From: Acidimicrobium ferrooxidans DSM 10331
GTDB taxonomy: Bacteria; Actinomycetota; Acidimicrobiia; Acidimicrobiales; Ilumatobacteraceae
NCBI GenBank assembly: GCA_945900735.1
Contig: CAMDJX010000006.1
Span: 1 to 35,795, forward strand
Direction: 5' to 3'
DNA length: 35,795 bases
The translations under genes and the position numbers were made by a program. Positions 1,580-3,745 of this stretch are shown one piece after another. Numbering within the stretch: position 1 is the first letter of the stretch; each line of letters starts with the position of its first letter. The notes beneath the pieces were generated by a model, which was given only the letters and a program-made list of their open reading frames with translations, was not told the DNA's origin and searched no databases.

Positions 1580-3181
1580 GTGAGTGTTTACATCCCCGAA
1601 GCCTTCTCTGATGACGAATCAGAGGTTTTGAAGCGCTACTTCACCAACCTCGATGGTCCGGTTTTCGCCTTGGTTAATCTGCCAGAGGTAGTAAAAGGCG
1701 CTTTGTTCGCTCGTTACAGCAGAAGCCCGAAAAGTTTGAGACGTCTCTTCCTTGACGAATTTGTAGGAGACCTGGACCTTGCAGGTGATGTCACCATGGA
1801 CGCCACTATCGGTTTGGATCACGCCGAATCGCTCTACGAAAAGATTTTTCTAGAGTATGGAGATGATTCTGTAGCCCAATTGGGTGGAGTGCACTTAGCT
1901 TGCGAACAGGCTTCCAATCTTCTTACGAAGATCTTGGAGTGGGGACGCTTGATGAGCTATCTCGAACAAAGCACGCGTTACATCAGTTATGACGCACGCC
2001 TGGGTGGTCGGTATCGCTATTTCCGCGATCCGGAGATCCTCAACAGCCCGTTTGGTACTCGTTATGTGGGCGACATGGACCGGATGTTTGACACGTACAC
2101 GACACTTGTTACTGGGGTGACTGATCATGTACGCGCCACCATCCCTCGCAATATTAACGACTCAGATTTTGTCTATCGACAAGCAACTAGAGCAAAAGGT
2201 CTCGATGCAGTTCGTGGAGTACTCCCTGCATCGGCATTGTCAAATGTCGGTGTATTTGGAACGGGTCAAGGCTACGAGTCCATGTTGCTGCGGATGCGTG
2301 CGCACCCACTGCCAGAGGCGCGGCATTATGCAGATTTGATGCTTGTTGAACTTCGCAAAGTGATCCCAAGTTTCCTGAAGCGAGTCGACCTGCCCGAACG
2401 TGGCGGCCGATGGAGCGATTACCTCGCACAGAATCACGATAAAACAAGCTTCTTGGTTGATGACCTCTTCGGTGCTTTGGAACCCGACAAAGTTCCAGAA
2501 GTTTCACTCGTTGATTTTGATCCGGACGGTGAATTGAAATTGCTCGCGGCAATTTGTTATTCGCATTCGCATCTTCCAGAATCGCAATTGCTGAAGCGAG
2601 TGGAAGCATTGTCGCATTCTGAACGAGTAAAGCTGATTGCCGCATACGTTGGAAATCGTGAGAACCGCCGACACAAGCCAGGCCGAGCTTTTGAACGAAT
2701 TGATTACCGATTCGATGTATTAGGCGACTATGGCGCTTTTAGGGATTTACAGCGACATCGTCTATTGACGATCGAATGGCAACGTTTGTCTCCCGATCAT
2801 GGATATGTCATGCCTGAACTGGTAGCTGAAGCTGGAATGGATGGAGTCTTCGAGGAGACCATGACCCGTTCATCGACGTTGTATGAAGCCCTTAGGCCCG
2901 ATTATCCCGAGCAAGCCGCCTACGCAATCGCCATGGCCTACAGGCTGCGTTATGTGATGCAGTTCAACGCCCGCGAGGCCATTCACCTGCTGGAGCTGCG
3001 TTCAGCGCCTCAAGGGCACCCGGCCTACCGTCGAGTTGTTCTCGAAATGCACCGATTGATTGCCGAGCAGGCAGGGCATAGGGCCGTAGCTGACGCAATG
3101 ACACATATCACTCACGCTGCTCCGGACCTCGAGCGCCTTGATTCCGAACGTAAGGCAGAATCAAAGCGCGAAAACAAGTAA
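1580..3181 (+). CDS. Tandem ThyX-domain protein (FAD-dependent thymidylate synthase family)
   Basis: A 533-residue protein made of two diverged ThyX-like halves; classical ThyX is about 220-250 residues and acts as a tetramer making dTMP with FAD and methylene-tetrahydrofolate. In the first half WGRLMSYLEQSTRY (near 115-130) aligns with the ThyX signature RHRxxSxxExSxRY, with RHR replaced by WGR. In the second half RHRLLTIEWQRLSPDHGY (near 395) keeps RHR but has Thr for the Ser and loses the downstream pattern; FNAREAIHLLELR later matches the ThyX C-terminal NxRxxxHFxxLR element. Each half therefore keeps a different part of the site. Start chosen at GTG 1580 because of a -10 box 8 nt upstream. 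True dTMP synthesis is not assured. Confidence 0.8.
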   Translation: MSVYIPEAFSDDESEVLKRYFTNLDGPVFALVNLPEVVKGALFARYSRSPKSLRRLFLDEFVGDLDLAGDVTMDATIGLDHAESLYEKIFLEYGDDSVAQLGGVHLACEQASNLLTKILEWGRLMSYLEQSTRYISYDARLGGRYRYFRDPEILNSPFGTRYVGDMDRMFDTYTTLVTGVTDHVRATIPRNINDSDFVYRQATRAKGLDAVRGVLPASALSNVGVFGTGQGYESMLLRMRAHPLPEARHYADLMLVELRKVIPSFLKRVDLPERGGRWSDYLAQNHDKTSFLVDDLFGALEPDKVPEVSLVDFDPDGELKLLAAICYSHSHLPESQLLKRVEALSHSERVKLIAAYVGNRENRRHKPGRAFERIDYRFDVLGDYGAFRDLQRHRLLTIEWQRLSPDHGYVMPELVAEAGMDGVFEETMTRSSTLYEALRPDYPEQAAYAIAMAYRLRYVMQFNAREAIHLLELRSAPQGHPAYRRVVLEMHRLIAEQAGHRAVADAMTHITHAAPDLERLDSERKAESKRENK

Positions 3182-3256: not shown

Positions 3257-3745
3257 ATGTCAAATGACGATGTCATCGGAGCCGATGATCTTGACCCAGA
3301 AATGATGATCGTCGAGGAAATTGACGGTGACGAAATTGATCCTGATGCGCTCGGACTCGAACTTGAGGATGAGCCGTTTGAAGAGGGAGCTGGCGCACTT
3401 GAAGGTGTAGACGACCTCATAGACGATCCTGACGCAATACCTGCTGTCGAAATCGTTGCCAAGAAGGCTGCAGACGATGACGACGACGACGACGATCTGC
3501 GAACCGAAGATGACGTAGAAGCAGACCTCGATTCGATCCTGCGCGACAAACTGACCGCTGCAGACGATCAACCACCAGAAGACGATGAAGAGGATGCAGT
3601 CGTTGATGATAAGACCGATGGAATGGAACGCCTGCAACCTCGCAGACCAGACGAGACTCAATGTGCGCAGTGCTTTTTACTCGTTCGCAACAGTGCACCT
3701 GGTTGCCCAGTTGAAGACGATGCCTGTCCGCTCTTCGTGTCGTGA
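3257..3745 (+). CDS. Highly acidic protein with C-terminal Cys cluster, DUF4193-like
   Basis: The 162-residue product is dominated by Asp and Glu, including a run of eight Asp near residues 73-80 encoded by GAC/GAT codons. The C-terminus, after an RRPDETQCAQCFLLVRN segment, holds four cysteines in a CxxC plus CPVEDDACP arrangement that suggests a small metal site. This layout (acidic N-terminal region, then a CxxCFLV motif) is like the actinobacterial DUF4193 proteins, whose function is unknown. The gene has a good Shine-Dalgarno site, and its stop overlaps the next start by 4 bases (GTGA). The long acidic tract could bind a basic partner; that is inference. Confidence 0.6.
   Translation: MSNDDVIGADDLDPEMMIVEEIDGDEIDPDALGLELEDEPFEEGAGALEGVDDLIDDPDAIPAVEIVAKKAADDDDDDDDLRTEDDVEADLDSILRDKLTAADDQPPEDDEEDAVVDDKTDGMERLQPRRPDETQCAQCFLLVRNSAPGCPVEDDACPLFVS

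Follow-up and report, generated by a model that had tools for sequence, protein, structure and literature searches.

A fused, double-length ThyX of Acidimicrobiales keeps complementary parts of the active site in its two halves

The closest described relatives of the protein reported here are the homotetrameric ThyX enzymes, flavin-dependent thymidylate synthases (EC 2.1.1.148), of T. maritima (TM0449), M. tuberculosis, H. pylori and PBCV-1. In ordinary ThyX each active site sits between three subunits (PMC6514825). For the M. tuberculosis and H. pylori enzymes, subunit A is described as the source of the RHR motif, which binds FAD, and of Arg95 and Arg199, and in the M. tuberculosis enzyme Ser71 and Arg190 come from subunit B and Gln103, Ser105, Arg107 and Tyr108 from subunit C (PMC6514825). 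Arg87 of subunit C is listed there as well; it lies near T. maritima position 70 and was left unused here. Similarly, Gln75 and Arg182 of PBCV-1 ThyX are given to monomer A and Ser88 and Gln89 to monomer B (PMC3498832), PolB holds dUMP by Arg82/His83 of one monomer and Ser96′, Ala97′, Arg98′ and Arg166′ of another (PMC5003785), and H53 has been placed on a third monomer (PMC11940539). Duplication of the ThyX domain has been in print since 2009, when Valas and Bourne reported it in Chloroflexi and "a few other species", as the only ThyX of the genome and uncharacterised (PMC3224940). The passages of that paper on the duplicated protein hold no account of the residues kept in each half, and its likeness to the present protein, in domain duplication and in sole-ThyX status, is one of description. 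The Thy1 protein of Thermus thermophilus with an extra C-terminal domain (6j61) is also longer than usual; however, with 270 residues its chain is too short for a ThyX duplication.

The present gene lies in a stretch of 35,795 nucleotides (the window) of an assembly of 1.64 Mb that is 91% complete. It occupies positions 1580-3181 of the forward strand, on which all features given below also lie, and forms an intact, uninterrupted open reading frame with a GTG start and a product of 533 aa. Thy1 (PF02511) was the sole Pfam family in this protein. Two matches gave 119.3 bits in total and each half alone scored above the cut-off of 24.8 bits (N-half: 51.6 bits, E 1.3e-13; C-half: 71.5 bits, E 1e-19), which bore out the double-length ThyX-like protein of the original prediction. 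The NCBIfam equivalog for single-domain ThyX (TIGR02170 thyX) gave 34.7 bits, under its curated cut-off of 87.9. A pseudogene or frameshift was rejected, as the gene is intact and conserved and both halves are constrained; purifying selection was strong on each of them (dN 0.11-0.22 against seven relatives, with dS saturated in 13 of 14 comparisons). The closest named relatives, with identities of up to 85%, were found in Ilumatobacteraceae/Acidimicrobiales assemblies, many of them lake-derived. Two more double ThyX proteins, 71% and 68% identical to that of the window, are titled Bifidobacterium breve (L127) and Acidobacteria (L162), and these titles are probably wrong. The gene is preceded by genes for a helicase C-terminal domain and YegS_C and followed by those for a short acidic protein, GNAT and an enoyl-CoA hydratase. 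Among 80 named loci these neighbours recurred in 55, 59, 71, 64 and 53 cases, respectively, which indicates an ordinary chromosomal locus. The acidic protein (3257-3745; 162 aa) contains Cys at its C-terminus and matched no Pfam family.

Residues were numbered after T. maritima ThyX by way of chain 5chp_A, in which the native number is the index minus 14; this offset puts RHR at 78-80, and S88, R147 and R174 also fall where published papers have them. The N-half (1580-2449), supported by alignment, Thy1 score and AlphaFold model, carries the dUMP-loop side of the site (S55, E86, S88, R90, Y91 and R147). As predicted from the letters of the window, its sequence has W121-G122-R123 (1940-1948) in place of R78-H79-R80 and then keeps the ExSxRY end of the motif, and in the alignment the active-site loop E86-x-S88-x-R90-Y91 is intact as E129-Q-S131-T-R133-Y134 (1964-1981). 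R147xxLP is intact as R212-G-V-L-P (2213-2227), and D95-D96-S97 (1862-1870) corresponds to H53-x-S/T55, with Asp for the folate-stacking His and the Ser kept. The C-half (2492-3121), for which the same three lines of evidence were used, carries the RHR/R174 side. Here R78-H79-R80 is intact as R392-H393-R394 (2753-2761), preceded by R388-D389, which stand for R74 and, with Asp, for Q75, and N463-A-R465...H469...R474 (2966-3001) corresponds to N163-x-R165...H/N169...R174. After RHR the sequence continues as LLTIEWQRLS without ExSxRY, a loop that the alignment shows as deleted or replaced at E399-W400-Q401 (2774-2782); the loss of the ExS pattern from a second half that keeps RHR was thus also confirmed. 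The motif RHRxxSx(N)ExSxRY is incomplete in either domain, and the full set of its parts is reached only with the two halves together.

Both halves are predicted by AlphaFold to fold as ThyX. The whole-chain model had a mean pLDDT of 75.9, with residues 28-75 and 88-132 under 50, and its residues 305-514 (C-half) matched T. maritima ThyX (5iot) with Z 16.4 over 191 aligned residues (rmsd 2.4). The N-half alone (residues 1-288) was modelled with a mean pLDDT of 90.4 and a pTM of 0.88, and its best match was M. tuberculosis ThyX (2gq2; Z 13.1, 198 aligned, rmsd 3.8). Of 117 N-half rows 92 were aligned for this fold and 87 then used, and the models are of single chains. The nearest unrelated structures reached Z 4.8 and 4.7 in the C-half and N-half comparisons. 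A search of the PDB with one sequence found no ThyX. The BFVD list of structures similar to the N-half included two ThyX-like entries of Gordonia phage Skog (372 and 185 aa), which could be specialised subunits. The fused protein thus shares the Thy1 domain and fold, in both halves, with homotetrameric ThyX, and over its whole chain also the dUMP-loop and RHR residues. It differs in having two domains per chain, halves with part of a site each, Asp for H53 (in bacterial proteins) and for Q75, and a predicted two sites rather than four.

To see how constant the split is, we compared 177 distinct double proteins, 141 bacterial and 36 viral, left from 190 after removal of identical ones. The class was represented by 36 proteins (the window and 35 of 40 regions fetched), a contig scan gave 79 (from 80 loci kept of 567 relatives), the rest of the phylum 26 (from the 25 of 30 chosen genomes that matched), and five phage genomes together with IMG/VR loci gave the 36 viral ones. 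The class regions left out were incomplete or frame-broken (L057, L071, L081, L082) or had a single Thy1 (L065). The viral loci left uncounted were L224 and L225, with the length and score of L223, and L239, with a C-half only. L071, which has two frames, was considered as a naturally split form; its break falls inside the LLRMRA/HPLPEAR stretch, not between the domains, and reads as a frameshift.

The split was identical in all 36 full-length class proteins. Their N-halves each had E86, S88, R90, Y91 and R147, with Gly at position 79 in all and Trp (32) or Arg (4) at position 78; their C-halves each had R74, R78, H79, R80, E58, N163, R165, H169 and R174, with gaps at S88, R90 and Y91 in all 36 and R147 lost. 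Throughout the 177 proteins S55, E86, S88, R90 and R147 were invariant in the N-half (Y91 in 176), as were R78, R80 and R174 in the C-half (H79 and Asp at 75 in 176 each, R74 in 172), and no C-half had an ExSxRY-type match. Across the 92 aligned N-halves the invariant residues were R48, S97, E129, S131, T132, R133, D209 and R212. "Loss of RHR" from the N-half needs some refinement, since it concerns H79, absent from 141/141 bacterial N-halves, and in most of them R78 (Trp in 115/141, Arg in 26/141), whereas R80 was kept in 141/141. The bacterial proteins also had Asp at N-half position 53 (141/141) and N-half R174 (136/141), and in the C-half E58 and R165 (141/141 each), N163 (140/141), H169 (132/141) and R369 at the place of S55 (141/141). 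The place of R165 in the N-half is unsure, being a gap in one alignment, and Q230 was chosen by eye for the count over 177 proteins.

The losses are complementary and follow one fixed split across 177 proteins, so this is not decay. The order along the chain (53/55, 78-80, 86-91, 147, 174) alternates between roles, so that the split cannot have arisen simply by losing one end: the uracil-activating R174 lies about 95 residues past RHR and yet stays with it in the C-half, and the dUMP-binding R147, between them, stays with ExSxRY in the N-half, each in 177/177. With about five separate segments, perfect sorting by role would occur by chance about 1 in 16 times; role sorting alone is thus weak statistically, and what carries weight is that the split is invariant across the 177 proteins.

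The ThyX of Microcystis phage Ma-LMM01 and its relatives, annotated as thymidylate synthase, is also double (491 aa) and has the same split. The viral N-halves were 18-25% identical to that of the window protein and differed from the bacterial ones in keeping H53 and losing R80 (36/36 each), and N163 and R165 were found in none of the 36 viral C-halves. Searches of viral sequences gave no relatives with the window protein and no matches with the first phage protein. In a quick tree of 72 halves the bacterial and viral N-halves grouped together (SH-aLRT 99), and the C-halves stood apart from N-halves plus ordinary ThyX (99). The C-half branches were long and no root was inferred; the tree would fit one old duplication. 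Two different full-length double ThyX proteins (L164 and L189) were seen in one assembly, whose stated contamination of 5% means that they may be mixed DNA. In three IMG/VR loci (L223-L225) the open frames are very compact, at 387 aa, and yet match the double ThyX profile over most of each half. In the open-access literature, to which our search was confined, we found no description of a divided active site, and the passages of three papers that mention phage ThyX do so without this point (PMC7431792, PMC7824862, PMC9927357).

Other ThyX variants were seen in the same material. Five ThyX-like proteins of about 300 aa (L241-L245, in genomes G294, G283, G255, G316 and G395) look circularly permuted. 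In 5/5 the ordinary ThyX profile matched with its positions 61/62-201/203 first and about 18-62 afterwards, the second match being weak (E 0.18-0.4), and their motif reads THR..SRN..SSRA with a C-terminal HWSP.EH. Four of the five genomes had no thyA match and G395 a partial one of 27 bits; a relative of the same genus code (G472) has a double ThyX instead. Such permuted-like proteins are common in phages, with 1023 records matching one of them, and 948 of these matches cover 80% or more of that protein. Additionally, one ordinary thyX (L240, genome G550) has an intein-like insert inside the motif, between RHRVGW and SYNEESGRY.

The original prediction had suggested a pseudo-tetramer with composite or lost sites. 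Composite sites fit well, since each half retains residues that ThyX crystal structures assign to different subunits of one site. Matching the published residue numbers to T. maritima positions by motif spacing, the C-half would supply the part of subunit A and the N-half that of subunit C. We consider it quite likely that the protein is a fused, internally asymmetric ThyX that still makes dTMP, with two composite sites in each two-chain pseudo-tetramer. Two fused chains would pair to give a ThyX-like assembly, in which one C-half would provide the FAD- and uracil-facing group of a working site (R78-H79-R80 and R174) and one N-half the dUMP loop (E86, S88, R90 and Y91) plus R147, so that the two halves probably have to come together for each working site. 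The third-subunit group (position 53 and S55) would most likely come from the other N-half, and viral N-halves retain both subunit B residues, H53 and S55. Each such site would convert dUMP, methylene-tetrahydrofolate and NADPH to dTMP in a flavin-dependent reaction. The two reciprocal sites, lacking both parts of the dUMP machinery, would be catalytically dead, and a four-site homotetramer would have turned into a two-site dimer of fused chains. The fused dUTPase of herpesviruses offers an analogy only, as a duplicated homo-oligomeric enzyme with its motifs divided between the halves and with an unrelated fold and reaction.

Points against this reading are Asp in place of both H53 and Q75, N-half R80 and (mostly) R174 still present in bacterial proteins, the TIGR02170 score under its cut-off and the stretches of low pLDDT in the whole-chain model. 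The Asp at position 53 of the bacterial proteins should not prevent binding, since an H53D mutant of T. maritima ThyX, the mutation being visible in the deposited sequence, was crystallised with FAD and dUMP (4kas). A search of open-access papers for H53D found none. The positions that contact the FAD phosphates sort less cleanly in the bacterial proteins, with S55 in the N-half and N163, R165 and H169 in the C-half. Ser71 and Arg190 have been placed on one subunit (PMC6514825), whereas their counterparts S55 and R165 lie here in opposite halves, which makes the third-subunit assignment uncertain. The retention in bacteria of C-half N163 and R165, and of N-half R80 and mostly R174, could mean either that a C-half makes the third-subunit contact or that some ligand still binds at the other two sites. 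If the first applied, the partner chain's C-half would provide the third-subunit group of the same active enzyme (R165, N163, and R369 for S55), and the true two-fold axis would run between two opposed flavins. The near-invariance of N163, R165, E58 and R369 in bacterial C-halves speaks for this geometry, as does the assignment of R165's counterpart to the neighbour of the RHR-bearing subunit (PMC6514825). However, S55 is invariant in the N-half in all 177 proteins, and the viral proteins keep H53 in the N-half and have lost R165 and N163 from the C-half, and we regard this geometry as unlikely. The second option, that bacterial proteins keep the non-catalytic sites as another kind of site, giving two catalytic flavins plus two structural or regulatory sites for a nucleotide (FAD, NADPH or dNTP), seems doubtful. 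It draws on N-half R80 and R174 and C-half E58, N163, R165 and H169, which are nearly invariant in bacteria, with R80, N163 and R165 gone from all 36 viral proteins; if true, complementary loss would have produced an allosteric thymidylate synthase.

The original prediction had also proposed a function other than dTMP synthesis, and this part was not supported. Following its suggestion, we searched the host genome for a separate thyA or canonical thyX and found neither. The fused protein was the only Thy1 protein, which also led us to reject an extra paralogue beside a normal ThyX, and a profile search with the ThyA domain (PF00303) gave no match in the fused protein or the genome. DHFR, thymidine kinase (PF00265) and dNK (PF01712) gave no match in this 91%-complete assembly either. 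Thymidylate kinase (PF02223), matched in 13 of 14 control genomes, was likewise without a match, probably by an assembly gap or a divergent enzyme, and single absences in such an assembly are therefore weak. A sample of 247 genomes of the class gave a broader basis: 216 had Thy1, 19 thyA and four both (Fisher 2e-12), in line with the largely exclusive distribution of ThyA and ThyX reported earlier (PMC5954106), and DHFR was found in 13 genomes, 11 of them with thyA. Within the order all 71 sampled genomes had Thy1, 40 of them with neither a thyA nor a thymidine kinase (TK1-type) match, and each had two Thy1 matches except G153, whose gene runs off the contig end. One genus of the class sample (g52) has a single-domain ThyX instead, in open frames of 218-239 aa. 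Thymidine kinase was present in 124/247 class genomes, and thymidine salvage is thus an option for many relatives. Genomes with Thy1 alone, the exclusion of thyA and the association of DHFR with thyA together give the picture of a functional thymidylate synthase.

Loss of thymidylate synthase activity, with another role taken on by this ThyX relative, would agree with the lack of a full site in either half alone, R78-H79 and ExSxRY each being lost in one, and with the score below the TIGR02170 cut-off. Lost function is known for the single-domain ThyX of Corynebacterium glutamicum, which is not required for thymidylate in an organism that depends on ThyA (3ge9, 3fnn). However, that situation differs from the genome of the fused protein; losses that are complementary and universal in 177 proteins, in genomes that mostly have no other dTMP synthase, with thyA strongly exclusive and DHFR going with thyA, make this reading very unlikely. 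Flavin-dependent methylation of another pyrimidine nucleotide, instead of or besides dUMP, would have a precedent in PolB, which acts with UMP (PMC5003785), and the uracil-side Q75 is Asp in 176/177 double proteins, so that the nucleotide contacts may differ. But PolB accompanies an ordinary thyX as an additional copy in an antibiotic pathway, whereas the fused gene is single and stands in a conserved chromosomal neighbourhood, and we hold such a substrate to be extremely improbable. From the genome distribution and the kept residues, the fused enzyme most likely still makes dTMP, and it looks like the organism's normal thymidylate route, of unusual design.

A fused ThyX of this kind would explain how thymidylate is made with a seemingly broken ThyX in a large group of bacteria, which takes in the sampled class around Acidimicrobiales and other classes of the phylum, and in several phage groups. 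Since mutations can be placed in one half alone, the part that each subunit plays at a ThyX site could be tested in turn, unlike in the homotetramer. The protein would be a clean natural case in which duplication, fusion and complementary loss have turned four equal sites into two composite ones.
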